A DNA stretch of 64,000 nt from contig CAIIXF020000005.1 in NCBI GenBank assembly GCA_903813345.2, positions 29,145,375 to 29,209,374 on the forward strand, in the 5' to 3' direction. This document shows positions 22,014 through 64,000 of the stretch, piece by piece. Source of the stretch: Owenia fusiformis (Eukaryota; Annelida; Polychaeta; Sabellida; Oweniidae). Position numbers and translations under genes: made by a program. The notes under the pieces were generated by a model, which did not search any database, was not told where the DNA came from, and saw only the letters and a list, made by a program, of their open reading frames with translations. Positions within the stretch are counted from its first letter, which is position 1. Each line of letters opens with the position of its first letter.

Positions 22014-22102
22014 CTACAACATAGAATCCATCCGGTGATCGCAAATCATCAATTGAGAGCCATGCTGATTTTCTGTGTTTCATGTATTTTTCAGGTTTCA
22101 CC

Positions 22103-42800: not shown

Positions 42801-45800
42801 CTGTAGAGGAGACAGTCAAAATCCATTGATTCTGAACTGTTGATTTTATGATTCTAAATAAATATGACAAAACAAGACTATATTTATACCATTTTGAGCA
42901 CACATTTGAGATGCATAAGTTGCATATCGTGAGAGTTATCAAGGTGGGACACCAGAGGCTAAAATTAAAATTTAAAAAAAAATGCAATCATTTTTCTACA
43001 TTTCATTAATAATATGAAAGACAAGACTTTTCTGAGAATATTTGAGGCGTATATGTTACATATCTTAGAAGTTATTATTATCATTATATGTTGCGATATG
43101 ATTACCCAGGAACGTAAGAAGCTAAAGTTTAAATTTTTAAATGTATAATCATATTCCTACATCTTATTAGTATAATATTATGACAAAGCAAGAGTACATA
43201 AATCATTTTGAGTACATTTGAGATACATATGCTCCATATTTTGGAAGTTATTAAGGTGAGATATGGTCACCCCTGGGACTTCAGAAGCCAAAATGAGAAT
43301 TAATAATTTCTAAAATGTACAATCATTTTTCTACTTCTTATTACTAATATTATGACAAAAAAGCAAGAGTACATACACCATTTTGAGCACATTTGAGATA
43401 CATATGCTCAATATTTTGGAAGTTATTAAGGTGACATATGGTCACCCCTGGGACATCAGAAGCCAAAATGAGAATTAATATTTTTTTAAATGTACAATCA
43501 TTTTCTTACTTCTTATTACTAATATTATGACAAAGCAAGAGTACATACACCATTTTGACCACATTTGAGATACATATGCTCCATATTTTGGAAGTTATAA
43601 AGGTGAGATATGGTCACCCCTGGGACGTCAGAAGCCAAAATGAGAATTAATAATTTCTAAAATGTACAATCATTTTTCTACTTCTTATTACTAATATTAT
43701 GACAAAGCAAGAGTACATACACCATTTTGAGCACATTTGAGATACATATGCTCAATATTTTGGAAGTTATTAAGGTGACATATGGTCACCCCTATCCTGC
43801 ATGATACCACAATTTTAAATTTCAATAATTTTTTTCTTCGCCGGTACATAAGCTATTGATCTAATTTTAAGTATGTGGTATGAACATATATAGGGCCTTC
43901 AGAATGAATTTTTTCAGTACATTTCGTACCTTAACGAATCTCAAATAAGTTATTACACGTGGTAGAAGTACCAAAATAGGTGGCGCCCCTTTAGTGAATT
44001 TCAAGATATGCCCTTATTTTCACCCTAATCCACACAAGAAAATTCATACTGATTGTAAATAATGTTTTTGATAAGATTTTATTAGTATTTCAATGTCATT
44101 TTACTATTAAAATGTGTTAAAAAATTATTTTATACCTCTACCCCCTGTTTGAAAATGAATAGATGGCGCCTCTTTAACTGCCCATAGCAAATTCGTTTAC
44201 CACACATTTTTACTCCACCCAAGATGAATTTATTCTAGAGAGTGTCTGGAACAAAATGATACCCACAAACCTTTTTTCCGAGCCGAGTAACGAAATCAGA
44301 CCTAGGGACAGCACTACCAAGAAAGTATTAGGCTTTAAAGTTTAGCCACAATACTTCATTATGATGCAAAGATTTGTGAATACAAAATAAAAGTAGGACT
44401 AGGACCTCTTCCCAAAATAGAGATACATGTATTTGATCTACAATTATTTACCATTCAGCCCCTCGGCATTGATGTAATTAAAACTTACAAGTGAAGTCAA
44501 AGCAATTTTCATGGCAGATTGCTGTTCTTTCATCTCCTTATGTTTCTGCTTCAGAGCATCAAGTCTCTTCTGATTGGCTAATGCATGCTTCTCCTCAGCA
44601 GTCTGATTGGTTGTGATTTTGGGCACCTTGGTTTTACTACCGTCAACAGTCTTAATGTTAGCTTCAGATTTGCTCTCTATTTTCATTAATTCGGTTTCTA
44701 TTTTAGGTTTAGTTTCTATTTTGGATTCTTTTCTCATTCCTTCGGTCGCTACTTCAGGTTTAATTTCGTTTTTCATCTCCACCTCAGAATCTGAATCATC
44801 AGATGAGGACTCTAATTTTTCACATTCTTTCCTATTTCTAACAAATTCTTTCATTTTTTCAGTGGACATTTTCTTTTTACTGGTTGTCATAGCTGCAGTT
44901 TCAAACATTTCAAAATCAGACCCACTGTCTTCTTCTTCCAACTGAGTAATAACCTTATTTGACGCAAGATTTTCATGAACTTTTTTTGTTTTCATTTGAG
45001 GTGTTTCAGTTTTTATGGGTTGTGAATTTTCATTATCAGATTCACTTGATTCTTCTTCAGATTCACCAGAGTCATTTTCTGATTCAGAAACTAATTCACT
45101 TGCAGAGTCATTAGATTCATCATCCGACTCTTCGAACTCCTCATCTGATTCATTGCCTGAACTGTTTGAATCAACACTTGATTCATCTTCAACATTTGAA
45201 TCAACACTTATTTCATCTTCATTGGGAGGTTCACTTTCCTCCATTGCACTTTCTGTTTTAAGATTTCCTGAATTGTCATTGACATTTGCCTCATCTGAGC
45301 CACTAGCAGATGAAGCATTTTCACCTATAGATTCCTCACTTAGAGGAGTGTCTTCATCAGATGACTTAGTGAGGTTTTCTTGATCAGCTGGTTTAACAAT
45401 TTCATTTGTTGATTTTTTATGAGCTCTTGATTTATTTCCTATTTTAAGATTAGATTCATTGTTGCGTTCTGTATTATCTTGCTCTGATTCTGAGCTGGAG
45501 TGATATTCAATTTCATTTTCAGATTTCAATTTTGAAGATTCATTATCATTAGTGCTATCATCCTCCCGAACAGTCTTTCTCATTTTATTTTCAATGTCCT
45601 CAATCTTAATTTTTCCTTTGATAATCTTTTCAAAATCATCCTCACTGTCGCTGTTATAAGTCCTTGGTTGCCAAGTTCTTCTCTGATGAGGTACATCATC
45701 CACTATGCCACTCTTGAATTCATCAACTGTGTTCCACTTTAAAATATTTAAATTAGTCTGTTGACTTTGTTTCTCCGATGATTTGATTGTATTTTTTTCA

Positions 45801-46239
45801 TTTTGCGTTTTAACCTTTTTCTTTGCTGGTTGAGGCCCTCCTACTGGTATTGTCAAACTACTTGTGCTATCTGACCTTTTTCTCGTCTTTTTCTTCATTT
45901 TTAATATGACCTGATCTGTATCTGCTGATCCCGTTGAATCCCTCTCAGAATTTCTTCCTTTCTTTTGTTTCCCTACCTGCTCAACTACATTTTTCTTAGC
46001 AGTTTTATCTAAATCCTCTTGAAGTGAAACAATCTCAAATTCACTAAGCCGAGGCACGATTTCAGTCTCAACTAGTTGTTTTGTTTTTATATTTTTCAGA
46101 TTTGTCAAACTGTTCAGACCAGATGATGTTGCAGTTACTTTAGTTGTTATTTTTTCTGATGGAGTGCTGGACAAATTGTTCGACTCAGGAGTCTTCTGGG
46201 CATCAACCACAACTTGATTTTTTCTTTTCTTCTGTTTTT
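27833..46239 (-). CDS. NOL8: Nucleolar protein 8, C-terminal ~997 residues (5' exons with the RRM not found)
   Basis: Minus-strand exons: 46239-44489, 37931-37791, 36638-36416, 35954-35831, 32867-32787, 32394-32135, 31705-31582, 28636-28548, 28351-28269, 27952-27833 (TAG). Phases agree throughout (2 + 998 codons). The large first visible exon is a low-complexity Ser/Asp/Glu/Lys stretch ending with a coiled helix (ANQKRLDALKQKHKEMKEQQ). Then come family blocks FDSDDD, FKIRPEYEGEAG..LQSRFG, RFDPTKEEH, LPEVSTEKYFEV, FFYFENDERLQ and, at the C-terminus, a basic tail with (RG)5. Vertebrate NOL8 is a nucleolar protein for ribosome biogenesis that binds Rag GTPases, with an N-terminal RRM (family knowledge). 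The exon at 32787 uses a GTTTGT donor. Introns contain a satellite array and a 6.3-kb inverted-arm element. No RRM is visible up to the next genes. Confidence 0.85.
29015..29212. repeat. Diverged first copy of the satellite
   Basis: 'gtggatacaaaatatgtgga ... ggtgtacatatgtaat ... atgttagtctc' is clearly related to the 136-bp unit but strongly mutated and about 60 bp longer. It suggests the single-copy ancestor from which the array grew. Confidence 0.65.
29213..30945. repeat. 136-bp satellite array, ~12.7 near-identical copies, in NOL8 intron
   Basis: The phrase 'ataaaatgtgtgggagagtg' recurs every 136 bp from 29221 to about 30850. Copies differ by only a few bases (for example 'gtctgattcc' lacking two t, 'actcag' for 'gtcag', 'aaaacgtg'). 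The copies towards 30660-30930 are slightly more divergent. Open frames across it are artefacts of the period. Confidence 0.95.
31035..31120. repeat. Short tandem repeat 'atcccgtatcag'
   Basis: Six or so copies of a 12-16-bp unit (atcccgtatcag, sometimes with 'caaa'). It lies between the satellite and a palindromic MITE. Confidence 0.8.
31339..31516. mobile_element. Palindromic MITE, 178 bp
   Basis: 'aggttatt...gaatatggattttattcc...atatgatattggcc' is matched by 'ggccaatatcat...ggaataaaatccatattc...aataacct'. The centre 'gggcgatagccc' is itself a hairpin. Confidence 0.8.
32868..35830. other. NOL8 intron, no element delimited
   Basis: About 3 kb. The stretch 34970-35300 contains two loose repeats of 'ggtggccattatgaattgag cagccatttt' type. 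The same family is seen at 56200 and 62540-62740. Otherwise nothing recognisable. Confidence 0.5.
37140..37653. mobile_element. TA-flanked pogo-like element with a fragment of coding sequence
   Basis: Inverted ends CTGTACGCCCGGTATTATTCG / CGAATAATACCGGGCGTACAG, bordered by TA. 514 bp. On the minus strand a 75-codon frame (37435-37208) contains SKRGTYKVYNDAERANIARHAL. This is very like the N-terminal helix-turn-helix start of CENP-B/pogo-type transposases ('KRGxYxxYxxExRAxIxxxA', family knowledge). The rest of the transposase is missing. In NOL8 intron. Confidence 0.7.
38560..39600. repeat. ~172-bp tandem repeats, left arm
   Basis: Four good and two decayed copies of a unit containing 'ggtgaccatatctcaccttaa', 'acttccaaaatatggagcat', 'tactcttgctttgtcataat' and 'tctgacgtcccagg'. 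The inverted counterparts are at 42890-43800. Confidence 0.88.
40811..41411. mobile_element. Palindromic TTAA-site MITE, 601 bp
   Basis: Inverted ends AGGAATATTCCTTGCCA / TGGCAAGGAATATTCCT, flanked by TTAA at 40807-40810 and 41412-41415. The arms are near-identical over about 200 bp ('gaagtgatgtcatcaactct' and inverse). The uninterrupted target sequence exists next door at 40696-40741. TTAA sites suggest piggyBac or Kolobok mobilisation. Confidence 0.88.
41418..42730. other. Centre of the 6.3-kb element, nothing recognised
   Basis: It contains 'ttttgaatggcctaat' at about 41500, the inverse of 'aggccattcaaaataatt' at 40512, which marks another nested inverted pair. A 76-codon minus-strand frame (42391-42161) has balanced composition but no recognised motif and no splice context. 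Confidence 0.5.
42890..43800. repeat. ~172-bp tandem repeats, right arm (inverted)
   Basis: The same unit in reverse complement ('atgctccatattttggaagt', 'cctgggacgtcagaagcc'), again about four good copies plus decayed inner ones. Confidence 0.88.
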
Positions 46240-48748
46240 CTACAAGCAAACATGTACATAATATTATGCAATGATGGTGGGATTTCTGGTGATCTGACTG
46301 GCCTATGTGAATTCTAAGATATACAGAACAGATATTCCACTCTGATGTCACTGTTTCAATGCTCTGACATCTTCATCTTCCTCCTGTTATAAAATGACAC
46401 GATTTGATGGGCCTAATAGTGGTACAAGCCAAATTTTCCAAAATGAGGCAAACAGTAGGACCCTGAACCACTATAAAATGGATATGGACATTAGTTCAGA
46501 CGAATGGCAGTTTTCAATTTTCTGAAAATTGTGGACAGATGAACAGATCAACAAGTGCATGATTCGGGGCATGATTCAACAGGCCCACCATGTGAGCCAA
46601 AACATTTAGAACACTACACCCTGTATGCCCAATATCATAAAGATAATATGGGGAGATATTTTACATTGAATAACTTGTATATTCATATATTGTACATATA
46701 AAACAATATACTCCTACTTGGTACATGTTTATGAGACCGAAATAAATTGCAATGCGAAAAGATGATATTTTGCTTATGAAATCATATTTTATTTGATTAT
46801 ATCTCCACCTTGAATTGAAAAGCTGGGTTTGAATATATACCACATGCATATATGAGTACACTGCTTTGCAAAGTAATTTTTGTGTGATATCACCCCTAGG
46901 TTTTTATATTTTACCTTTGAGTATTTTTTTCAAAATGTGATTAATAAAGTATTCAAAATAAAAGGAAACTAAAAATAAAAATTTGAAATAAAACGAAACT
47001 AATTTCAAATTCAACAAAAACATGCATTTAATAACACATGATAAAAAACTGAAAGCAAACAAGGCATTAATAACAATTTCTCACCCCATTGTGAAGAGTA
47101 AATACTGAAGAGTAAACATGTGAACCCTGGATTCTGAGAATTAAATGAGGTTGATCAAGTTTAGGTTCGGGTGACACCCTAACCTCAGCCACATGAACTT
47201 AAGGTGTTACCATAGTGATCCTTTGATACTGATTATAGTGATACTATTCAATTTGGTAACTTTTCTGATTTTTACCATTTAATTTGGCTGATTTGGGCCA
47301 ATCTTAATTTCTGTGAGTCAACTGCATGATGAAAAACTGCATGATTTTGAAAGAATTTTTGACCAGGGAAAGGGGGTTTGCTTGAACTCCTCGACCCCCC
47401 CCTCCACGGGTACGGGCCTGCAACACTTGTTCTCTTTTCAACTTTGAGGCGATTAGTAGGTGGCTTTGCTTTGTTTTTCTCAGTATATTATACACATTAC
47501 ACATGATTTCATAAAATTGCTTCCCTGAAAGACATACTTTAAGAGGGTTTACAATGTATGGCAAGAGCAAACTCATAGCTATTCCCAGAGATTTATTTTA
47601 TAGTGTGATTTATAGCCAGCTTTCAGTCAGGGGGGTGTGACCACCAATTTTTTTTCTGGTTTTCAGTCAGGAGGGGGGGGGGGGGGGTGCGATTGTGACA
47701 AAAGGAAGGCAAAAATAATGTTTTTTAAGATTTGTTAGAATTCTCAAAAAATTGATGAAACTTCCTTCAAAATTGAGCTACAAGCTTCAAAAATAAAAAG
47801 CACTTTAAAGCTCTTTTCTTCTATCTAACGGTTCTATTTTCTATTGGTTATTGGGGGGAGCGATCGCATCAAAACTATACAGGGAAACACAGAGATACAT
47901 TTACAGTTTGCATAGTTATCTATTTGTCAATTATATCGATTTTCAATGTACAGGCAACTGACACCCATGCGGGTGTATATAGTTCCATATGATTATATTA
48001 CATAATTGTATTTATCAAGATGACAAGATATAAAACTGTTTTTTAAGATAGAAAGTTAGAAGAAAAGTGATAGAAGAGAAAGAAATATACATATATAAAA
48101 TATATAAAAGCACATATAGCTAAATGTTATACAGATTAATTTAATGTACCCAGAGGTCTATAATAATGTTGTTTTGTCTGCAGAAAATATAAATAAGATA
48201 AGACTAACTAATTTACTAATTTGACATTCATATTTTTCAAATTCTGTCATATGTTCCCTCTGGATAACATCATGATATGATATCATCTCCAAAATGACAA
48301 TAGATTGGGTTGTCAGTAGAAAAATCTATCAAGCAATATTTAATCTATCAAAACCTCATATTTTAAATATGGTATTAATAATAAGTTTTTTCTAGTCAGG
48401 ATAAAAAAACAAATATCATTAATACATTATAAGCGAGAGACATAACTATGAAAATAAACTGACAGAAAATCATAAATAATGAGAACTTCCTGAAATGACA
48501 TGTTAAAACTTCATTTCTGGGAAGTACGATGATGCAGCATTTTCTGCAGATTTCAATGTAATGCTTTATTGATTTTCTGAAATGTTGGTATTTCCATTCA
48601 AATATCTTATTACAGTATATACAGTCTTTTTATTAAACCTCATACATTTTTAAAGCTTCAACATATTTGGTATATTGATCTAAATAATACAACTATTAAG
48701 GCACAAGACAGTCATCCAAGAGTGTTCAAACAACTTGTCGGAGTTAGA
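46240..48748. other. Region between NOL8 first visible exon and small-protein gene 1
   Basis: An acceptor for NOL8 (tgcttgtag) lies at the left edge. An isolated 'acgggcctg' at 47409-47417 with adjacent G-rich text, and poly-G at 47673-47687, look like remains of a CAGGCC-family element. No RRM-coding exon was found on the minus strand. Confidence 0.5.
47673..47687 (+). repeat. Poly-G tract
   Basis: Fifteen consecutive G followed by 'tgcg'. The context 'ggggggtgcg' resembles the subterminal part of the CAGGCC element at 2038. Confidence 0.8.
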
Positions 48749-49912
48749 ATGGCTCACCAGCGTCATGTACAAGGACATGTGCAACAACAATTACATCATT
48801 CTCCAGTAGAGGACCCTGGGTGTATTGGGAACACCATTTCCTCGCATTATAGCTACCACAACAGTAAGTAAATTGAAATTTTTTTTAGATTATTTTGAGA
48901 ACTCTATGTGTATTATAAACATCATGTTGAACCTGGGCCTGAACAGGTCATGAGATTGATGATCAATTTGAGCTAGGATCATGTGTGATAACTGGTAAAT
49001 ATATATATTTTTTATACAATGTAGTTCACATCAGTGTACGTATTAGTTGGGAAAAGGTTTCATTGGGATTGAATCCCCAGTGCTCGAAAAGTTAATATAA
49101 TTGTTTAAGTTCTATGATTGTTTTAGAAAATAGCCTTATATGGTTAAAAGCTCAAGCAAAAATTCAAAAAAATTCAACATTCTTATTTAATTTCAGACAG
49201 ACCAATCATCATCAACAGCAGACCTAACAATAAAGATGAACGGGTATGTTAATTAACTTGATTATTTCTATAATGTTAATCTTAGTAGTAATTGATTTCT
49301 ACATAAGTCATGTGAAGAGTTGGATGTTGTGATGAATCCACAACATTACAGTGTCTAGGATAAAGAAGAAAATAAGCTATTTTTGATCTTATAATGTTAT
49401 TCAGCATTCTCTCTAGGATTTTTTCTCAAGTGGGTGCAGGATTGTCATTTTCACAATTCTGACCAAAATTGGTCAAAAATGCCTATTTTTCTTGATTTTT
49501 CTCATTTTCAAGTGGGTGCAAACATATTTTCAGACTGGTGGGTGCTAGCATGTTTTCAAAATCTCAGGTGGGTGCTGCCCCCACTACTTTAATGCTGGGG
49601 AGATCACTGATTTGATCAATTAATGGGTTAAGACTAATGCAATGTTTCATGCTGTTTCAGAGAAATGTTAAGTTGGGCCTTGCTGTCGCTGGTACTAGTT
49701 TTTCTGGTGGAGTAGCCATTGGTCATGGTGCTGCAGCTGCAAGTAGTGCTGCAGCTGCAAGTAATGCTGCATTTTATGCTCCATTTGCAATGGCAGCCAC
49801 TGCTCCGTCAGCTCCAGTTGGAGGTACTGTCCTGGCTACCTTGGGTGTTGCAGCAGTTGCTGTTATAGGAGTAGCAAGTGTTGGATATTTAATATGGTCA
49901 TTCTTTAACTGA
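48749..49912 (+). CDS. Unrecognised small Ala/Gly-rich membrane protein, gene 1 (137 aa)
   Basis: Exons 48749-48863, 49197-49243 and 49661-49912 (TGA) give 414 nt with matching phases and good splice sites (GTAAGT, GTATGT). Residues 1-38 are hydrophilic and His/Gln-rich (MAHQRHVQGHVQQQL) and end with IGNTISSHYSYH. Exon 2 adds a basic spacer. Exon 3 (55-137) is hydrophobic: a Gly-zipper-like segment LAVAGTSFSGGVAIGHG, a doubled AAAASS/AAAASN block from an 18-bp DNA duplication, and a C-terminal membrane helix (~110-134, ending LIWSFFN). There is no N-terminal signal peptide, so it may be inserted post-translationally by its tail. A homologous gene lies downstream at 54856-64000. An ISG12/IFI6-like Gly/Ala membrane protein came to mind, but no signature was seen. 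Function unknown. Confidence 0.75.
49395..49605. repeat. Dispersed repeat with 'agtgggtgca' motifs
   Basis: 'agcattctctctaggatttt ... aagtgggtgca ... ggtgggtgct ... aatgctgggga' lies in the second intron of small-protein gene 1. Its ends are weakly inverted (agcatt/aatgct). Tentative. Confidence 0.35.
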
Positions 49913-50321
49913 AGAAACTCTCCCAATGTTAGATAAATTGTATGCATGAAATGAGCAGTAACACAGACCAGTGGGATATGTGGAGAGGGGCATAATTCCT
50001 CCCACTCACTAGACACTCACTAGATAGACAAACAGGCCCTCAGCGTCATTGCATTAACATTACCAACGCAAAGCAATTCATCATAATTCTAATACAAAAC
50101 AATATAGGGTAAAAACTGTGTCAAGTAGAACAACATTGGTATTGGACATACCTACTTGTGCTAAGATCCGATTAGTGAAACTTTATTTCTTTTTTTCACT
50201 AAATCACAGCCAAAAGGCGTAAAAATTAAATGGTATTATATTAACGTTGTCTTTGTGATAATCAGTATGTTTTCTTTTGACCTGAAACTGCTAAATCATT
50301 ATTATGTCCCCTCTCAATAAC

Positions 50322-51375
50322 TAGGGGTGGGACGATGACCCGATGAGTCGATTCCCCACAGGTTGAGGCCTTCAGGTTGACTCGAATCGAATCCTCTAGT
50401 TGAGGAGTCGACTCGTTCGGGTTGAAAATGATGATAACTTCCCCGGGTTATAATTCCAGGCAATTTTTGGTATCTAAACTGTGGATTTCAAGGCTTTCTT
50501 TCATGATCTAGCCCATCTATGTGTTTATATTAGTTATTAGAAATGTCCAGAGTATTATTAATGTAATAACATTACTTGTTTGTATGTAATGATTGGAATA
50601 AAATAGAAATTATAAACTTCGTTAGACTTGTTTTTTTTCTTTGTGGTGATTAATTTACGAACGAAAATAAAATGACGTTCGTTATTTTATCTTTATTATT
50701 AATGTATGTTGTCATTCCCTGTGAGAAATTTTCTATGTTTTATGAGTAAACAAATTGTTATTATCCCCCCGAATACAAATATATGACAGGTAAAACGATA
50801 ATAATGGGAACAAACTCCGACTTTTTTGTTCTGTTACGAAAGTTCTACATGTTCGTTAAATGTCTAATATACGAACGACCACAGGCTTTTGTGTTCGGTA
50901 TTTGTTTTTAGATCTTAAATAAAAGTTGTTGAAATTTGTGCTTTTTATCAGATTATATCCGAATTCTTTTCAACTCAAATACTTTAGAGTGTTTCTAGTT
51001 TGAAAACTATGAGATAAATCCCTGATTTATTGATATTCGTAAGTGTTGGGTGTGTTGTTGCAAACGCGCCGGTCATTCGTAGATATATGCCTGTTCAGCA
51101 AAAAGAAACATGTCCCATCACCATGACCTTCATGCATGATCATATCCGTTTGGAAAAATAAATACAACGCAGAGATTTGCAAGTTAAAACATGTTTTATT
51201 CTCTATAAATAGTAAATACTATTAACAAGTAGTTATAATTCACCAAAAATCAGTCATGTACTCTTTAAGGAAATATAATGTATATAACCCGACCCGAGTC
51301 GGAACTCGAATCGGATTTTTCTGGCCCGACCCGACCCAGACCCGAATCGTGCCATTTCGACCCGTCCCACCCCTA
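50322..51375. mobile_element. hAT-type DNA transposon remnant
   Basis: Inverted ends TAGGGGTGGGACGA / (TCG..)GTCCCACCCCTA. The flanks 'tcaataac' and 'caaataac' look like a degraded 8-bp duplication. Internal subterminal 'gagtcgactcg' and 'cccgacccgag' runs are present. No transposase is readable. Confidence 0.65.
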
Positions 51376-51967
51376 CAAATAACAAAACAGCACCATGGGT
51401 ACTGGGATAGATATAGAGTCCAAAATCCCTACCTAAATATTTATCCAGAATATCCAAAGATTAAGAATTTGTTTGCATTTTTTCAGCTAATAAATGGCAA
51501 CCATTTTGAAAATACAATGCTGATACAAATTAATTGATAAGTCGTATAGTTGGCATATTATCTTGAATTGAACGTTCAATATCCCAAACTCCCCCAAACT
51601 GCAGAAAAGTATACACCGCAAATCATATTTACCTAAATGAGTGTATCCAAGGCTTCAGACCAGCGTATGCATAATGCATTTGTCATGATTCTGAGCTGAA
51701 ATTTTGCAAAAATGAAATTGAATTTGGTTTGTTTATTGTGTACCCTGCGTGCAGAGTCTCACTCTGCCTAGTAGAAACCATACTACAGTTTAGTAGCCCC
51801 ACCCCCACGACAGGTGCCGGTGACAGTTCGGGTAATAAATCACTTCTGACCTACGCGCTGACTTTTGTTCCATCAATCAGCGAGCTTGAAGAAACAAGCG
51901 CCAAAATAAATTCTGAATTGTCATTGGTCAATTCCGGGCTTAACGATGACGTCAGAAGGAATGACCA

Positions 51968-52317
51968 TATATAGAACGTCGGTCAAATTTGGCCGACGAG
52001 CATTGATTGGCGCGGTGAGTTCACAGGTTTATTTTAGTTTGAAAGAGTGAAGACGGAGCTCTCTTTTAAGAAGTGAAGTCGAACGAATGCAAAGGGTATT
52101 TATTGTGGTTAGGTTTTACATAATTATAAGTGCTCAGAAGCAAATAATTCATTTGCGCAATATGATCAAAGAATCTGATTGGTTTTAACTTTACCACGTA
52201 CATGTATACACACAATATGTGCCATGTTTTTCTTGTAGTGATTTCGTTTTGTTCCATGGAGTTTGTGTTTCAGTGTAACTTCCACAAAAATGGCGGACTA
52301 GTGACAGAATTAACAGG
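51968..52317 (+). promoter_or_regulatory. Candidate promoter and 5' UTR exon of small-protein gene 2
   Basis: A TATA-like 'catatatagaa' (51967-51975) is followed by ~350 bp without long frames, ending at a donor (aacag|gtaaaa, 52317). The next acceptor before the gene-2 ATG is near 54820. This is an inference from spacing only. Confidence 0.2.
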
Positions 52318-53186
52318 TAAAATCACTTCAAAATTTAAGAGAACTTTATACCTATAAAAGCAAATTTCACTCATATAAAGTCATTTCAGTGCTTTTTCTA
52401 CATTTTGACTTAATACCTTAGAGATTGAATAATCAAGTTTTTACAAGATTTTACAATATTTTACTAGATTTACAAGTTTTACAAGATTTACTAGATTTAC
52501 AGTCTATTGAAATCACTATATGTGGAGGAATAAATTAATTCATAATGATGCAACTTCTTGTTAGAAGACACAGGACTCTGGAAAATAGGCATTTGAAGCC
52601 CTGTATATCTGATTCTGCCTTTAAAGTTTGTAAATAGATATTATAGAGAGCTATTTTTTTTGGTGATTTTTACTTTTAATATTTTGTACTAGTAACTTAT
52701 CATATAATATTACTATTAAACTATTTATTTTTCACTTTATCCCAATTTTATGTTTCATATTTTAAAGTTATGTTGAATGTCATCACTTGGATTAATCTGT
52801 GAGGGAACATTTTTTGCGTTCTTTGTGGTCACAGTCTTTAGGCTTTGTCTAGTTATATAACCCCTTCCACTGGAGGGAATGCCTTCCCATTATACTCATG
52901 GTCAATAGATATCTGTATTTTATTTGATTGGTCCGTAGATATTTTGGTAATAGGAAACACTTATTCCAGACAATCTCCAACAACCAGTATTCCAAATGAC
53001 AATACTTGCTGTGGATCCCACAATGCAATTCTTCAGAGCTTTGTTCAATATGTTTTATTTAAAGGAGTGACAAAAGTCACAGGTAAGGCTGTGGTGAATA
53101 CAACCTTTAGAAATATATACAGATATTCAACTCCACAGAATTCAATATTTGTATAATGTTTGCAGCAAGGTGGAATATTCCTTTAA

Positions 53187-54660
53187 AGGCCCACTTTGCG
53201 TCATCAAAGCTAACAATAATTAATCAAAAAATATTTTCAATCTGTCAATCTTTATATATCACGTTTTTATCAATGCCATTGAAAAATGGCAAAGCTGTTT
53301 GTATTACATGATACATTTATTGTTAGTACCCCACACACAATTTTGTCGCCTACTTTAATGTATTGTAGAAAAAAATCCAATGAGAATTTTCTCATGAAAT
53401 TTGGCATACATTAAATTGAAACAATTTGTGACACTCAAATTTTTTGTTTGGGGTAATATGACTTCACCACAATTTGACATCGGTTTCTAAATTGCTACGT
53501 ATTTACTGATTTGACCTAAATTAAGCAAAATTTTGAAACAATTTGTAACAAATTGAATTACAAAATTAATTTGAATATTCTGGTCAATCCTATCCTATTT
53601 AACACCATTATAATCCACAGGTAAAAGCAAACCTGAACCAAGCAGGAGTGACTGTTATAATGTTACAATGTTATGATGTTACCCCTGAAAGGTCACATGT
53701 TAAACCCATGTGGATCATTTCATGTTGTCCAACAAAAGGTAAGCGATCGGTGGCCACCAGTGAGTCATTGGACGAATATGGCCTCCCTATCATAGGCCAA
53801 CGAGTGCAAGCTCACTGTTAATAATGCCTTAAATGACTTAAACAAAATACACGCATTTTCTTGAGATCTTATGAGATCCGAGCTATTGGAAAAGATTTTT
53901 TAATCGAGTGAGAAAGTAGGAAATGCTGTAGTGGTAGGATGCGATTGAAATCCACGCAGGGATGTCTTTAAGTGCTCTGATAAACCTTTTTAGACTTAAA
54001 GCCACCAAATCATATGATACATGCACCTACCCATGTATTGAGAGTATTAATAAGGGCCTTCACTCTTAAAAAATAATAAAACCACACTTACAATATTCCT
54101 ATTTAGGAGTTAAAACATCTCCAACACATAGTAACAATATTAAACATATGTAATGCAATAAGTTTGTAATCAAAATGTAATCAAAATGATTAAAACTCAT
54201 TTTGAAACTGCAAAACTGGAAATTTTCGTCGAATTTTGTTAAAACATGAATATTTTAAAATTGCTTGTTTTTCGTCAATATTACTTAAATTTCCAAATAA
54301 AAAAATCTGAGTGTTACAAAATGTTTCAAGTTAAAGTGTGCCAAATTCCATAAGCAAACCCTTTTTGGATATTTTTCTACAATACATCAAAGTAGGCGAC
54401 AAAATTGTGTGTGGGGTACTATAGAAGTGTCACTATCTTTTAAAATAATTAAGTAATTAAAAACGTGCACTTTGTTTAGATGTGCATGCATGTCTAATGA
54501 TCTCTGATCTTCAAATGCTTTTTTCTATGCGAGTTATTTTTTTCTTGGTTAAATATTAAAGCAAATCAAACTTTATTTCATATTTGAGCGAGTGTGTGAG
54601 TAATATGTTTCAATGTTCTTTTTTTCTTTTTTTTTCTTCTAAATTAAGTATCGTGGGCCT
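53187..54660. mobile_element. TTAA-site MITE, 1.47 kb
   Basis: Ends AGGCCCACTTTG and CGTGGGCCT are flanked by TTAA at 53183-53186 and 54661-54664. Subterminal inverted blocks include 'gtaccccacacacaattttgtcgcc' (in parts: ccccacacacaattttg, tcgcctacttt) and their inverse near 54390-54420. No coding sequence. Confidence 0.75.
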
Positions 54661-54855
54661 TTAAATATCTATTGAAAACAAAAATGAATCATTAGAATAA
54701 ACTTATGATAAGGGACTTCCCCGTATATGACTCAGACATGTTATTTCTGAGAAATGCTGAATTTGTATCATTATTCAGCATAAATAATACTACTAGTACA
54801 ACGTTAGAACAGGAGACATAGATTCCAAAGTGTTCCGACCAATTGGACGGAGGAA

Positions 54856-57800
54856 ATGGCGTACCAGCGACATGTAGGAGGAAGTAGACGTATGCAGCAA
54901 CAGCTAGATAATAATTCTACAGAAGAGGATGATAGTATAGGGAATAGCATTCCCTCATCCCATTACACCCATTATGACAGTGAGTAAAAGACAAAACATT
55001 TATGTATATTATTTCTCTGAGAATTTTACACATAAAATATTATCTTATTATGAGGGTCAGGAAATCCCTGTGTTTTATTCTGACGTATATATGTCGTATT
55101 GTGATTACACAAAATTGAAAATTAATCAGACAACAGTTTTTCACTTCAGAATTTGAATCGCGAGATTTGGTCTTATTTCTGTATGTTGTATTATTACATG
55201 TATTATTACATAAAAATTTCAAAACACACAAGAAATAATTTTAAATATATTAGTTCAAATCATTTCAATTGTTATTTTGAATTTACAGCCAGTTACAATG
55301 TCATACATTAACAATATGCTTCTTATTATAATCACATATTCGAACATGACTGTATTCACGCCTTCTATAAACTGTAAAAAAGTCAACATTTCACCCGGGT
55401 ATATCTGTGAAGAATACCCCTGGTAATACGTATAATGTGTGACGTCATAACGACGGGTCGTAGTAATGGTGGACCATAAGGAATATTCTAAACATTTTGG
55501 TGAGTTTTCATGTTCGAATCGTAATATAGACCTCAGAGCCGGGATAATGTCGTCGAATACACCCCTTAGGGCTAGGCACAAAAGGGTTCAAAAGCTTTTG
55601 TGCTTAGCTCTAAGGGGTGTACGTTTGTGCCTAGCCCTGCGGGGTGTATTCGACAATATTACCCCTGCTGTTCGGTCTATATTTCTTAATTAAATTTCAA
55701 CAAAGTGGCTCTATTACTTTTCCAGTTATAGCAAAGTAAATAGTACCATGGGTACAAAAGTTTGGTCTTGTACATTTGTTTCTGTTTTTTCATATGCTGT
55801 TGCAATATGGTGATTTTATTGCTTATTTGAAAGTTCTAAATAGAATTTTGAATCAGACTGTAAAACAAGAATCCCATCAACAGAGGTTTTCAAATGTGCC
55901 ACTATTGTGGACTGACTGAGAGACAGATGGACAAATCAATGTTAACTAAAATGGCTGAAATGCCGATTTTTTGAAACAAAATTATTTCATAAAACTACTC
56001 TTTATAGTGACATGGCTTTTTACAATGTAGGACACCTGAAATTATTTATAAAGCTACCAAATGGTCTAAAAGTGAATGGTGACCATTTTAAAAGGCGAGC
56101 TTTTGAACCAGGAGTCAAAGGGGGGTTTTCTTCATTGATGTTGAACAAAAATAACTTTAAACAGGAATCCTATCGACAGAGGTTTTTAAGAAAATGGTCT
56201 AAAAGTGGATTTAATGAGACAAAAATGGCAGCCATTTTGAAAATAGGTGAGCTTTTGAACCAGGAGTCACAAAGAGGTTTTCTGTATAGATATTGAACAA
56301 AAATAATTTAAAAAAGAATCCTGAGAGAGGTTTTCAAACATGTCACTATTGTTGACGAACAGACAGACGGACAAGTGAGTGATTGCAAAAGCTCACCATG
56401 TGAGCTGATAAAAAACTTGAAATACAGGGTGTCTGGAAAGTAAAGATACAAATACTCTAATTTTAAGAGATTTAGTTTCTTGTAATGAAATCGCTACAGA
56501 TTATAGAGGAACTATATTACAATACATCTACCAACTTTTATAACATATAGTCTAAATGTGTTAAAGTAACGGTTGTCATGGTTACGGTGGTGAGGGGTAT
56601 GCGGAGCAGTTCTAGGATATAGATAAATTGTGATCAATTGCTAAAATATAACCATTTTAAATAGTGTTTATTATTGTATTTCTTCAGTTTTTTGTTTTGT
56701 TCAATATTGCATTCTTGTTGCCATAGGATTATTTTTAATATAACGATATCATTGATACACATCAGAACTATGTAATGTCACAAGTATAATCAAAGAAAAA
56801 GAGTATATAAGTGGTTAGAAAAAGGGTCCCTGGATTAATAGGAAAGTCAATAGTGCACCTCCACAGTCAATGCTCCAATGCACAAAGCAAAGAAAACAAA
56901 TCTTACAATTGAATGTCTTGACATCAACATTTTTGTACAATGGCCCATATTTCCCTGATAATGTCCCGCTGGACTTCTACATTAATGAATATGTTAAAGC
57001 AATTTGTGAGAAGTTCAACATAAAAATGAGACTCGGCTGGGAGCCAATGTTATCAGCAATCTTAGAGACTGGCAGTAAAGGTTTTGTCAGGTCTTGAATT
57101 TCCGGTCAAAATGCACCAAGAATGTTTAGATAAAGGTGGAAAATACATAATACTGGATAACAGAAGTAATGTCAAATGATTAATTAATTTTACAGTACTA
57201 ATCCTTTTGCTGTTGTGGTACATAATTTGATGCATAATAGCAACAGACGACGGAGTGTCAAGATGATATGAACAGGAGAAAAGAATTATAAAACATAATT
57301 GTGACACTGCTGCACATACCCGCGACTCCTGTTACCATAACAACCATAACTTTTTTATTTTGAAACAATTTGTAATGTCAGTTGCAGGATAAATTGTTAC
57401 AATGCCATTCTACAATCTGTAGCAATTTCATTTGACAACAGGTAAATCTAATGAAATTAGAGCATTTGTATCTTTACTTTCCGGATACCCTGTAGCACAT
57501 GTAAAACTGGCCGTTTTTCATAATGGCAGCTCACTAGCCAAATTGTCATTTTGTGAGGGTGTCTGAAAAATCTCAGATGATGTAAATTCTAATAAATTTT
57601 ACATAAAAAGAGTTAAATATATAGTGTGTGTCATTACACTATCGTCTTTTGCTTTTTTCACAAAACACCAATTTCATACAAAACTGAACCTTTGTCCAAG
57701 ATTTTGACTGTCTCCAAGTGCGTTTAGTAATATTAAGCAGTAATACTCATCTCTCGGAGATGTTATAATTCTCTGGAACTTCAGTTAATGAAAATTTTTT

Positions 57801-60800
57801 ACTTACTTCTAAATAAATCTAATTTTGAGTCACTTCAATAGCAATAACACCTAGTTTTGTCAAATGACCTTTTCTTATATAACATTATAGAAAGGATTTT
57901 ACAAGAACTAAATTTAGATGTTTTAATTTTCCCTTTGTCAGCTAGAACGTAGAGCTATACCCCTCTGCAGTTGAAAATATAACATTTTACAAATCTGCTT
58001 TATTTTCCTCAAACATGCCCATATATTTAAATATATTGTTGGGTTTTTCTAAGTCATGCTAGGTTTCAATTCTTACCTAAAGATGGCAGCATAGCTGTCC
58101 ATCAAGACTTAACAAAATCAGTGAAGCCAAAAGCCACAACTCTGTTCTTTTCACTCATCATATAGGCAACACTTAGTCATTTCTCATAACCAGACTAGCT
58201 GAACTCTGTTATTTTCACGAGCCTGTATCTCAAGACTTAAACATTTTACATCCAACCAAAGGGGCTGGACTTTGTCATTTTTCAACACCAGTGGTTCATG
58301 ACTTACACAATTTTAATCATTCATACAGTTGGACTTAACCATTTTCAGTGACATTTCAGTAAGAACTTAGAATAATTTGATCATTAAGTTTCATTGGCAC
58401 TTTGCCAAATTGGTCATTGGCAGGTTGCCAATCGTGGTTTGGCAACATGCCAATATTAGTACTATATAAGAGGCTTCGAAACCTCACCCTGGAGTTGTCT
58501 ATGTCTATGTCAATAATCTGCAAAAGGCTAATAAGCCCATATAAAGCAGATATATAATTTAACAGTGATAGAATTTGAATAGAATATAATTTAAAACCTT
58601 AACATTTAAAAATAGATCTATGGTTTACATCTCATTTTACCTGGGGAGACTGTCAGGCTACCGCGTTGACATCACCCCTCTTTACCAGTAGTGCAGGCTT
58701 GTTGCTGTGCACTGGGGACCCTTTACATTAAAACATAGATCTATATTAAAAACACACCTATTTAATTGCAGTTATTGACATAGGCATAGTATGATGATTT
58801 AAAACTACTTAGACTGTCACAGTCTAAGATGTCACCAGGTAGAGTGTTCCATTTAGCTATTGTCCTAGGGAAATAGCTAAATTTGTATGCATCCGTTCTA
58901 GTTGATGGTTGTATGAACTTAGAAGGATGATACAACCTAGTGTTGGTATTGATCTGTTGGCGGAAGTATGGAGGCACGTCGATGGCTGCTAGGTTCTGCT
59001 TTCCTTTGTAGAAAAGGAAAACTCTAGCAGCCTCTCGACGCTCCTTCAGGGGCTCCCACTGTAGGTCTTGAAGAGCTTTGGTGACGCAGCCTGGTTCCCT
59101 TGAGTGACATTTGGTTACAAACCTGGCTGCTCTTCTCTGTACCTGTTCCAACATATCAATATCTTTTTGTCGGTATGGATCCCATGCCGAGCTGGCATAC
59201 TCTAAATTAGGCCGGACTAGTGACTTATACGCCTGAGCCTTCACTTTTTCAGGGCATTGATGGAGGTTGCGCCTGAGAAATCCAAGCACCTTATTGGCTT
59301 TGGATACAATAGTTTGAATATGTGTAGTCCAGCGTAAGTTATTTGTGATGTCAATTCCTAGGTATGGGATGTGTGTTACCGACTTAAGGTTTTCCCCTAG
59401 CATGGTGTAATTGTGCATGATAGGGGATTTACCTTTGTGAATATTTAGCAAATAGCATTTTGATGGATGGAATTTCATTTGCCATTTTGATGCCCAGGAG
59501 ACCAGTTTATCAAGATTCTCCTGTAGTGTTAATGCATCTTGCTTGCTTTCGACTGTCATGAATAAAAGGCTGTCGTCGGCAAAAAGCTTAAGGCTGGCTG
59601 AGGATGATAGGTTATTGCCCATATCATTGATATAAACAAGGAAACAGAGTGGTCCAAGAACTGTTCCTTGAGGAACTCCTGATTTTACTGGAGTTTTTGA
59701 ACTTGATTCACCATCGAGCACTACCTGTTGTGATCTTCCCACAAGCCAGGATCTGAACCAGTTCAAGTTATTATTGCGAATTCCATAATAGTCGAGTTTG
59801 AGCAAGAGGCGTTCGTGAGCCACCGTGTCAAACGCTTTGGAAAAGTCTAATACCAACATGTCTGTTTGTTTATTGTTGTCGAGGGCCCGAGCTATATTCT
59901 CTATTGTATTGACAAGTTGTGTTTCACATGAGTGCTTTGACCTGAATCCATGTTGGAATTTTACTAGAATTTCATAGAGGTCAAAGTGGGCCATAACATG
60001 ATGGAATATAATATGTTCCATTATTTTACATGGAACTGACGTCAGAGATACAGGCCTGTAATTCACAGCCTCATCTCTTCGTCCCTTTTTGTAGATAGCA
60101 GTAACATTGGCATGTTTCCAGTCCATAGGCACTAAGCCTTCATCGATAGACTGTTGAAAAATTATTTGAAGGAATGGTGATATGCTGTCACTGCATTCCT
60201 TCAGGACCCTAGTCGGAATAAGATCGGGTCCAGTGGCTTTTGATGGATTTAGGCCAGTTAGCAGTTTGTGAATTCCTTTTGTCGAAATTTTGATATTTGG
60301 CATTTCAGGAATTTGACTAGGTACCATTGTCGATAGAGTGGCATCCTCATCTGTGAATACAGAATTGTATTGGTCATTGAGGATGTTTGCTTTCTGGGCG
60401 GCGTCTGTTATTTCGTCGCCATCTTTATTACGCAGCACGCTGATACCTGATGCATCTTTGCGTTTAGACTCTATGTAGCTCCAGAAGCGTTTGGTAATGC
60501 CTTTGTGCTGAACATTCTCATTTATGATTTCGCTTTCATCAATGTCAAGCAGATCGTTGATGTAGCGCTGATGTTCTTTACGAATTTCACTATGGATTAA
60601 TTTCCGTAGTGATTTGTATTTATGCCAATGATGAGGTTCATTTGAACGTTTGGCAACATTATATCGTCTTTGTTTCTGTCGGATCATTCTCAGTATCCTG
60701 GTGGTAATCCAGGGTACTTTGAATTTCCCACTTAGAGTTTTACTTGGAATATGCTCATTGATTGACGATATTAATGTAGATTTGAAGGAGGACCAGTTGT

Positions 60801-63800
60801 CTTCAACTGATCTACTTTCAGAGTTCTCTTTGAATTCGCTGAACTAAGATCGTAGAGTCTCTTTAAGTCCAGTCCATTCTGCCCGCTTGTATATGTGGAC
60901 CTTACGAGGCTTCTTTTTCTGAATTTTCATTTTTAGGTTTATATCACATAGGACTGCCTCGTGATCACTCATGCCCGGAACCACCGAGATTCTTTCTGCG
61001 AGGTTTGGGCATGTAGTGAATACTAAGTCAAGGATGTTATTTTGTCTAGTTGGTTCCTTGACTAGTTGGGTTAGGCCATGATCATCAGTTATTGTAATCA
61101 TCTTCTCATTAAGATCATTAGAATATTGAGAATTAGGCCTTATAGTTCCATTCTCCCAATCGATGTCTGGTAAGTTGAAGTCACCACATAGGAAGATGTT
61201 TTTCATATGTGTATTACCATTAGCATAAAGTTTATCGAGGGATGTTTGGAGCGAGTCCAAAGCACCAGTATCGTTGTTTGGTTGACGATAGAAGGATCCA
61301 AACAGTATGTCCCCATTTGATAGAGATGCTTTGGACCATATGATTTCGCAATCAGCTGTCGCTTCATATTCGACTGATATGAAGTCACTTTTGACTGCGA
61401 TAAGGACACCGCCAGCACCTTTCTTTCGGTCTTTCCTGTATGGAGGTGGGCTAAGGTAGTCTTGACCGAATATCCATTTGCTGTCGATGGTGTTGTCCAG
61501 GTGAGTCTCACAGCCTATGATGACATCTGGCTTGTGAGTTTCAATTAGTTGTTGAAGGTGTAGTTGCTTCTCATGACTAATTAGACTGCGGAAGTTGATA
61601 GACATGAGGCGAACCTGGTTTCGCCTCTTTCGTGCAGTCGGCCTCGGTGGTTCTGATTCGGTAGAATCAGATGATGATGACGAATTGTCAAGATCAGAGA
61701 GAGCGCTGAAGGAGTTTGTTACCGAGGAATGAGAAAGAGTGGAGTCATTGAAGAAGCTGTTGGAAAAATTAGGTAGGGCACATCCAGGACAGATCCAGGT
61801 GAAACTGCCCGCGTCAAGAAAAACATTGTACTCAGCAGAGTTACGATCCGGAGTTACGATTGGGTCTTTTACAGTCAGTACAGTAGCTCAGTAGTATATA
61901 AATTGTACATAGATAGTGTAGTTTGACTATATATAATAATAAAGAAGCCTATGTTACTCTAACTCTGAAGTTTGTCGTATCATATTGGCGTCATCGTTTC
62001 GTAGAGACCCAACAATATATGGATAAGGTAACAGCATGCTATTTTCATACAAACATAAGTGTACCTATGATGGGGTCAGGTCATCCCATTGGTTTTGAAG
62101 GGGAAATGGGAAACAAGGCATTTATTCAGAGTTTTTCTTAGAGTAGTTTTCATCCTTTGGACCTCGCTAGTAATTTTGACCTCCCTAGTAATTTTGAGCA
62201 GCTGCTACATCATACACTATAATACCTCTAATTCTTAATGTTTCAGGCAGATCAAGAAATATCAATCGAAGAAGGCAATATGATAATCCACATGGACGAT
62301 CTTATAGGCCAGATGGACAGGTTTGTTATTTCTCTTCATGCTTTCTTTGGTAGAAACTATTTTTTACACTTTACGACCAAGACTTACAGAAATGGATTAA
62401 TTACATTTTTAACAAAATTGCAGCCATTTTGAATGAGTGGCCATATTGAAGATTCCCCTCATTTTCCCCTAAGACATTAGCCTACAAAATTTTGAACAAA
62501 TTCTATAAATAGTGGTACTTTAAGTTATCAAAAATTAGATTTTTAAGAAAAATGGCAGCCATTTTGGCATTCATTGGCCATTTTGAAAATCACTCTCTGA
62601 GCAGAGTTCCTATGTCCATCAGGCATCAGCCATTAAAAGTTGAACCAAAGCCGACGACAGATATTTTGGGTTATCAAAGATAACATCTTTTATAAAAAAT
62701 GTCAGCCATTTTGAATTGAGCGACCATTTTAAAAATTCCTTCTCTCCTTTACCCTATGAAATTTGAAACAAATCCATCAACTGGTAATCGACCCATTCAA
62801 ATGAATGAAAGGATGGACAAATGGATGGACAGCTTCTCTGAATCTCTACCAGATTTTGTTAAGTGGGATAGTGAAGACATAAGTATAAAGGAGGAGGGAA
62901 AGTATCACAACAGATTTCGGACAGTCATATGTTGGATTTTGGCTATTTTCTAAGGAGTACATTTTTCTGAGTACATTTGGGTATTTTAGGAATGTAGGGA
63001 ATACAAATTTCTAACTTTCTCCTGAGAATATTAAATTGTAGCGAGTGTGTATTGACTTAACATGAAAATATGCACCCTTGACTTAACATTAGGTATTACA
63101 ATATCCCTTTTAGACATCATTATCCTTTTAAATATGTCCTCATAGGTATACTTATCAATGCTATAATTAGTTCCAAAGGAGCACACACAATCTAAACAAA
63201 TGGTATGAGTGATACATACCAAGCCTTCTCATGTTCTATATGAACAATCAAAGTAAAATCTATAATTTAAAACACATGCAGTGCCAACTACGACCGTTAA
63301 TTTGAATTCTAGACCTACCAGTTGTTTGAAAATCAAGGATTGTGAGTCTCATACTGCCAAATTGAAAATTCCCCCTTTGGCAGGTATTAGCTTGTAATAT
63401 GTGAGCTGAATCTGTCAAGCGGTATTTGAGTTATTACCCATACAGATAGACAGATGAACAAATAAATGAAAAGACGGACTAATGGACAGATGGCTTCTCT
63501 AAATTCCTCTCGTAACTTCATTTGGTTGGATAACTAGATTCACCCACTGGTGTTTGAGTTATCAAAGCTTCACATTTTTTATCAAAATTTGAAATTTCTT
63601 CTGGAGCAGCGGTCATAAAAGGCATTGGTTTCTAAAAACTGAACCCAATCTGCTTACAAGTGCCAGATGGCTTCTCTTTATCCCTCCTGAACTACAGACT
63701 AAATTCGATGGAAAGATTAAAAAATGACTATAATACCTATACATTAGTACACCTTTATCTCGTGCAATAGTCATCAGTTCTCTACACACATGAGAAATGT

Positions 63801-64000
63801 CATTGTCAAATTATCATCACAATTTCAGTTATTATGGTCAAATAAGAGTCATTTTTTCATTTCAGCGAAATGCCAAAGTGGGTTTCGCTGCAGCTGGTGT
63901 TGCTTTTTCTGGTGGAGTAGGCCTTGGCCATCTAGTGTGGGGCCCAGCTGGTGCTGTAACACCCATGACAGTTGCTGCAGGCTCTGGAGTAGCAGTTCCT
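54856..64000 (+). CDS. Unrecognised small Ala/Gly-rich membrane protein, gene 2 (runs off the window)
   Basis: Exons 54856-54979, 62247-62320 and 63866-64000+ have the same phases as gene 1 (phase 1, then phase 0). The N-terminus MAYQRHVGGSRRMQQQL and the exon-1 end IGNSIPSSHYTHYD match gene 1 (MAHQRHV..., IGNTISSHYSYHN). Exon 2 is longer and Arg-rich (SRSRNINRRRQYDNPHG). Exon 3 opens RNAKVGFAAAGVAFSGGVGLGH, directly alignable with gene 1 RNVKLGLAVAGTSFSGGVAIGH. The frame is open at the window edge, so the C-terminal membrane helix is not seen. The first intron (7.3 kb) holds a LINE, a mariner remnant and a foldback. The exon-2 donor is GTTTGT. Tandem duplicate of gene 1, function unknown. 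Confidence 0.7.
55523..55683. mobile_element. Palindromic MITE, 161 bp
   Basis: 'aatatagacc...gtcgaatacacccc...gggctaggcacaaa' is matched inverted by 'tttgtgcctagccct...ggggtgtattcgac...ggtctatatt'. A second, inner hairpin 'aaaagggttcaaaagctttt' is present. Confidence 0.75.
55850..56410. repeat. Diverged tandem copies of an 'aatggcagccattttgaaaa' repeat
   Basis: Three passages share 'aatcctatcgacagaggttttcaa' type text and 'ggtgagcttttgaaccagga'. The end is 'gacagacggacaagtgag ... ctcaccatgtgagctgat', the same tail type as at 12735. Confidence 0.6.
56425..57492. mobile_element. Mariner-like element remnant with transposase relic
   Basis: Inverted ends CAGGGTGTCTGGAAAGTAAAG / CTTTACTTTCCGGATACCCTG, bordered by TA. 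Near 56935-57090 a + strand frame contains NGPYFPDNVPLDFYINEYVK. This resembles the mariner-type 'WPPxSPDLxPLDFxLWGxxK' region around the last catalytic Asp (family knowledge). The rest is decayed or deleted. Confidence 0.7.
57493..58599. other. Intronic DNA of small-protein gene 2, left of the LINE
   Basis: About 1.1 kb without a recognisable gene. It contains a short 'gccaaattggtcattggcag gttgccaat' repeat at 58395-58455. Confidence 0.5.
58762..60843 (-). pseudogene. LINE reverse transcriptase segment
   Basis: Same frame as the endonuclease, resuming after the TAG. All RT landmarks are intact: palm aspartate in LDFSKAFDT (59821-59850 region), GVPQGTVLGPLCF, FADD box (59566-59595 region). 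The stop TAA is at 58762-58764. The segment is 694 codons, and the stretch from the first ATG (60687) is 641 aa. No frameshift was seen. Confidence 0.92.
60844..61605 (-). pseudogene. LINE endonuclease segment, ends at in-frame TAG
   Basis: Exonuclease-endonuclease-phosphatase domain from MSINFRSL to the stop TAG. The catalytic landmarks are E in CETHLD, GDFNLPD and the terminal SDHE. The frame upstream of this methionine is also open to about 61880, so the methionine is not the true start. After the TAG the same frame continues as FSEFKENSESRS into the RT part. Confidence 0.85.
62321..63865. repeat. Intron of small-protein gene 2 with diverged 'ggcagccattttg' repeats
   Basis: Passages at 62420-62460, 62540-62590, 62690-62735 and 63340-63380 share 'gtcagccattttgaattgag', 'ggccattttgaaaat' and 'tggacagatggcttctct', suggesting an old tandem or dispersed repeat. 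No coding exon was found between the two gene exons. Confidence 0.5.

Follow-up and report, generated by a model that had tools for sequence, protein, structure and literature searches.

The right-hand end of the window, a stretch of 64,000 nucleotides of Owenia fusiformis DNA, raises the question of whether two neighbouring sets of small coding exons form a pair of real, related genes and, if so, what kind of protein they would encode. The first-pass annotation had read them as a tandem pair for an unrecognised family of small Gly/Ala membrane proteins.

Exon structure, similarity and selection

The observation of a tandem related gene pair holds. Both genes are three-exon models, placed in tandem and head to tail on the + strand. 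Gene 1 spans 48749-49912 and encodes 137 residues. Gene 2 was completed from 10 kb of DNA read across the window end; it spans 54856-64273, with its stop 273 bases beyond that end, and encodes 201 residues. The features of the locus are as follows.

48749..48863, + strand: gene 1 exon 1, 115 nt, coding, ends in phase 1; start ATG, donor GTAAGT
49197..49243, + strand: gene 1 exon 2, 47 nt; basic linker
49661..49912, + strand: gene 1 exon 3, 252 nt including TGA; Gly/Ala segment and C-terminal hydrophobic helix
49728..49771, + strand: 18-base tandem repeat, 2.4 copies, in gene 1 exon 3, Ala/Ser run
54856..54979, + strand: gene 2 exon 1, 124 nt, ends in phase 1; head starts MAYQRHV
58762..61887, - strand: non-LTR retrotransposon inside gene 2 intron 1, antisense to gene 2
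58762-60843, - strand: reverse transcriptase frame of this element, PF00078 4.1e-34
60844-61887, - strand: endonuclease frame of this element, PF14529 6e-14
62247..62320, + strand: gene 2 exon 2, 74 nt; longer Arg-rich linker
63866..64273 (63866..64000 inside the window), + strand: gene 2 exon 3, 408 nt to the stop

The splice junctions were taken from the first-pass annotation and verified by reading frame and splice consensus. Introns 1 and 2 have phases 1 and 0, respectively, in both genes, and all four introns begin with GT and end with TTTCAG. Neither model contains an in-frame stop. In both, the frame has a stop upstream (48578 for gene 1, 54805 for gene 2), and no other in-frame ATG lies between it and the start ATG. 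The common structure of three coding exons that had been proposed is thereby borne out. The end of gene 2, sought to the right of the window, was found at the stop at 64273, and it revealed a C-terminal VGYLIW..FN matching gene 1 (VGYLIWSFFN in gene 1, VGYLIWAAFN in gene 2), so that the C-terminal helix is common to both proteins. Gene 2 had also been described as having a lengthened linker and lengthened introns, and it does: exon 2 measures 74 against 47 nt, intron 1 7267 against 333 nt and intron 2 1545 against 417 nt. About 3.1 kb of the growth of intron 1 comes from the insertion of the non-LTR retrotransposon, whose endonuclease and reverse transcriptase frames are separated by a stop.

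We measured the similarity between the two proteins as a local alignment score, compared with shuffles of the partner sequence. The whole proteins scored 222 against a shuffle mean of 46, a value reached by none of 500 shuffles. Exon 1 (88 against 22), the start of exon 3 (81 against 24), the last 30 residues (84 against 28) and the whole of exon 3 (135 against 62) gave scores reached by none of 2000 shuffles in each case. These figures uphold the conserved N-terminal MA[HY]QRHV and the exon-3 start RN.K.G.A.AG..FSGGV..GH that had been noticed by eye. The motif given for the end of exon 1, IGN[TS]I..SHY, is indeed shared, but a gap of one residue is needed to align it (IGNTI-SSHY / IGNSIPSSHY). 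For exon 2 the score was 17 against a shuffle mean of 18 and was reached by 1313 of 2000 shuffles; the linker is therefore not detectably conserved.

At the DNA level, a blastn comparison of 46701-50600 with 52801-66200 gave E < 1e-5 only for three matches, all of them exonic, the six further matches having E values of 0.044-0.53. The introns of gene 1 and gene 2 therefore differ, as had been stated. The exon-1 match starts 34 (gene 1) or 32 (gene 2) bases 5' of the ATG and extends 9 bases into intron 1, which indicates a short stretch of 5' UTR common to both genes. We also considered an internal duplication of two helices and set it aside as unproven. The comparison of the exon-3 start with the C-termini was suggestive for gene 2 (shuffle fraction 0.011 with its own C-terminus, 0.007 with that of gene 1) and not for gene 1 (0.29 and 0.39).

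A dN/dS near 1 between the paralogues had been named in advance as an argument against selected proteins. By the NG86 method the ratio was 0.32 over the 86 codons of three conserved blocks (bootstrap 0.15-0.61), a value pushed low because the blocks were picked for conservation, and 0.53 over all 136 MAFFT-aligned codons (bootstrap 0.31-0.90), where the Gly/Ala middle is aligned with little certainty; both samples are small. With YN00 the blocks gave a dN of 0.27 and a dS of 0.59, a ratio of about 0.46, and the 22-codon exon-3 start alone gave a dN of 0.40, higher than its dS of 0.24. A fair reading of these values is that the ends of both proteins would be under purifying selection, and we do not claim strong constraint. 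Together with the shuffle tests, the NG86 ratios below 1 favour the earlier argument for real, related and selected proteins, and we regard both genes as probably real and under selection.

The same data can be held against the view that the two genes are decaying or non-coding duplicates, that is, open frames left by a family being lost. Such a loss would fit the finding of only two copies (see below), the ratio of 0.53 over all aligned codons, the retrotransposon in gene 2 intron 1 and the absence of AATAAA or ATTAAA from the 1 kb downstream of the gene 2 stop. However, the reading frames and splice sites of the two genes are all intact, and the NG86 ratio reaches 1 or more in only 0.001 of the bootstrap resamples for the blocks and 0.009 for all codons. 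We consider decay very unlikely.

Copy number and family

The genome searched comprises 498.26 Mb in 525 contigs, and pattern searches across these 498 Mb found gene 1 and gene 2 and no further copies. The pattern FSGGV..GH had two matches, both in the gene pair (control 0). VGY[LF]IW had 18 matches, 16 of them outside the two genes (reversed-pattern control 7), and MA[HY]QRHV with at most one mismatch had 17, of which 15 were outside (control 2). Each outside site was inspected by eye, and no relative was seen among the 16 VGY[LF]IW sites or the 15 MA[HY]QRHV sites; in all 15 outside heads a stop follows within 30 residues, and none exceeds a score of 40, compared with 88 between gene 1 and gene 2. 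When the genome was searched at the protein level (E <= 1, six candidates each), again only exons of gene 1 and gene 2 came up. The search with gene 1 misses exon 3 of gene 2, and the reverse is also true, so this search is insensitive and remote paralogues could be missed. A 29-residue query joined from the motifs of the first-pass annotation had no match in the genome and carries no weight. A COX1 model, which had matches in 8 of 14 control genomes, had none here, and a molluscan haemocyanin domain likewise had none, a result without weight because no control gave a match either.

More copies had been thought possible to the right of the window. The end of gene 2 does lie there, but tblastn over the window and the next 9.5 kb, with the low-complexity filter off, gave no third copy, all off-gene matches having E values of at least 0.077. 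Among viral contigs there were 71 pattern matches and among prokaryote genomes 34, none of which was confirmed as a relative.

The failure to recognise a family was reproduced in every library searched, and we use the word unrecognised for a protein without a significant match in Pfam, NCBIfam, PDB sequences and PHROGs (exon 3 only for the last), a sense that refers to these libraries and not to metazoan proteomes. In Pfam, gene 1 had no match at E <= 10. The only Pfam match of gene 2, to DUF2207_C (PF20990, a predicted membrane protein), had an E value of 0.31 and scored 11.2 bits, where the cut-off is 33, and gene 2 is not a member of that family. NCBIfam gave no match at E <= 1, and PHROGs gave one weak match, to gene 2 (E 0.22). 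The folds of PDB and BFVD, searched with the weak model of gene 1 exon 3 described below, gave no matches, and no paper on this protein appeared among the titles and abstract openings listed in the literature searches. Among PDB sequences, gene 2 had two matches (a legume lectin, E 0.048, and an NADH-quinone oxidoreductase subunit, E 0.67) and gene 1 had 13 (E 0.29-0.61: 11 copper oxidases, a microneme protein and a geopilin), which we judged to be due to chance or composition.

These searches leave room for the possibility that the two genes are rapidly evolving members of a family with annotation in other animals, such as an 'uncharacterized protein' orthogroup, and are invisible to the libraries used. 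Searches frequently overlook short proteins of biased composition, the libraries contain no metazoan proteome, and the two genes do not even find each other's exon 3 in the genome protein search. Against this stand the Pfam results, with nothing at all for gene 1 and a match far below the cut-off for gene 2. We give this possibility about an even chance, and it is compatible with the reading that we prefer below.

A more specific proposal is that the genes are a divergent branch of the Ifi-6-16 family (IFI6, IFI27/ISG12; PF06140), whose members are small, hydrophobic, Gly/Ala-rich membrane proteins. The composition, the size and the predicted hydrophobic helices are similar, and other loci of this genome contain members of the family, with four matches above the curated cut-off of 29.1 bits, two of which are separated by about 10 kb on one contig. 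However, PF06140 gives no match to either protein at E <= 10, and two of the four genomic members were compared and do not align: the profile comparison of exon 3 with their exons gave a probability of 1% over one column, in what is a weak test with two sequences a side, and BLASTP of gene 2 exon 3 against one of these exons gave an E value of 1.7. Moreover, the motifs MA[HY]QRH, GYLIW and FSGGV are absent from the 3.1-3.2 kb around the two compared exons. The likeness to IFI6 and IFI27 (ISG12) appears to be one of composition only, and we regard descent from that family as highly improbable.

A predicted membrane protein

The layout of the two proteins had suggested a protein inserted into the membrane by its tail. 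In 19-residue Kyte-Doolittle windows, values above 1.6 occur only at 104-137 in gene 1 and 167-201 in gene 2, that is, in the last 34-35 residues. The next-best windows reach 1.41 just before the C-terminal cluster in gene 1 and 1.52 in the spacer of gene 2, and the Gly/Ala segment at the start of exon 3 peaks at 1.30 (gene 1) and 1.40 (gene 2), under the usual threshold. No window of the heads is positive, the best values being -0.35 (gene 1, starts 1-50) and -0.52 (gene 2, starts 1-60), and an N-terminal hydrophobic signal is absent from both proteins by this measure. Both heads are polar; that of gene 1 starts MAHQRHV and is His/Gln-rich, and that of gene 2 is rich in Gln, Asn and acidic residues. 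Beyond K58, gene 1 lacks K, R, D and E entirely; gene 2 has only three Glu beyond K70, and in both the tail that follows the hydrophobic helix is about four residues long.

The AlphaFold2 models of the exon-3 products were each built from two sequences. That of gene 1 is weak (mean pLDDT 64.7, pTM 0.31) and has helices at 2-42 and 53-82. Its pLDDT, averaged by block, is 76-85 over residues 61-83 and 55 or below over 21-60, apart from two blocks with 56 and 52. That of gene 2 has a mean pLDDT of 36.1 and is unusable.

Tail-anchored proteins, as a biophysical class, are likewise characterised by one strong hydrophobic segment near the C-terminus and by the lack of an N-terminal hydrophobic signal. 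A tail-inserted membrane protein is therefore plausible and consistent with the hydropathy. Unlike that class, however, the pair has a second, weaker Gly/Ala segment at the start of exon 3; as this segment is conserved between the copies, a two-helix hairpin could also be formed. The spacer is the region in which the two proteins differ most in length, and the 18-base tandem repeat in the spacer of gene 1 makes slippage a likely source of this change.

We therefore favour, with a probability of roughly 0.6, a lineage-restricted or fast-evolving duplicated gene pair of an unrecognised family, which would encode a cytosol-facing membrane protein, tail-anchored or two-helix, with a freely varying Gly/Ala spacer. 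If expressed, the protein would be made in the cytosol with a polar, soluble head and a short basic linker. Its strongly hydrophobic C-terminal helix would then be inserted tail-first, most likely into the endoplasmic reticulum, since tail-anchored proteins with a short tail lacking basic residues tend to go to that membrane. The Gly/Ala segment may form a second, weaker helix on or in the membrane and might pack against itself or against partners through its small residues. The head and the anchor would be constrained, and the spacer between them would be free to change length.

A bolder version of the same idea is a two-copy family born in this lineage, whose product would be a tail-inserted, Gly-zipper-like membrane protein whose head and anchor stay fixed while its Gly/Ala spacer expands freely. 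This protein might oligomerise, and it would have reached an IFI27-like build without common descent; we think this version unlikely. Lineages commonly have duplicated genes of their own that encode small hydrophobic proteins. If the pair is absent from other animals, it would be a clean case of a young membrane-protein gene diverging, with its ends held, its middle free and an intron enlarged by a retrotransposon. If it is present in other animals, it would be an ordinary uncharacterised family. The present evidence gives the protein no role, and the weight of the finding is accordingly modest.

Other features of the window

A search with the bacterial code found no tRNAs in the window. A DnaJ-domain gene of at least two exons lies at 22025-23077 on the + strand (PF00226, 5e-20); it has a Gly/Asp/His-rich tail and resembles a co-chaperone of the DNAJB9 type of the endoplasmic reticulum. 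The open frame at 44444-46372 on the - strand encodes 642 residues rich in Ser, Glu and Lys and has no Pfam match at E <= 0.01. With the frame at 36297-36638, it may form part of a nucleolar-protein gene, with a putative resemblance to NOL8. The window also contains a tandem array at 29198-30935, made of 12.8 copies of a 136-base unit with 98% matches, and two arrays of a 172-base unit, at 38559-39249 (4.0 copies) and 43132-43793 (3.8 copies). The latter two lie about 3.9 kb apart in opposite orientation and are 97% identical over 662 alignment columns, forming an inverted pair.
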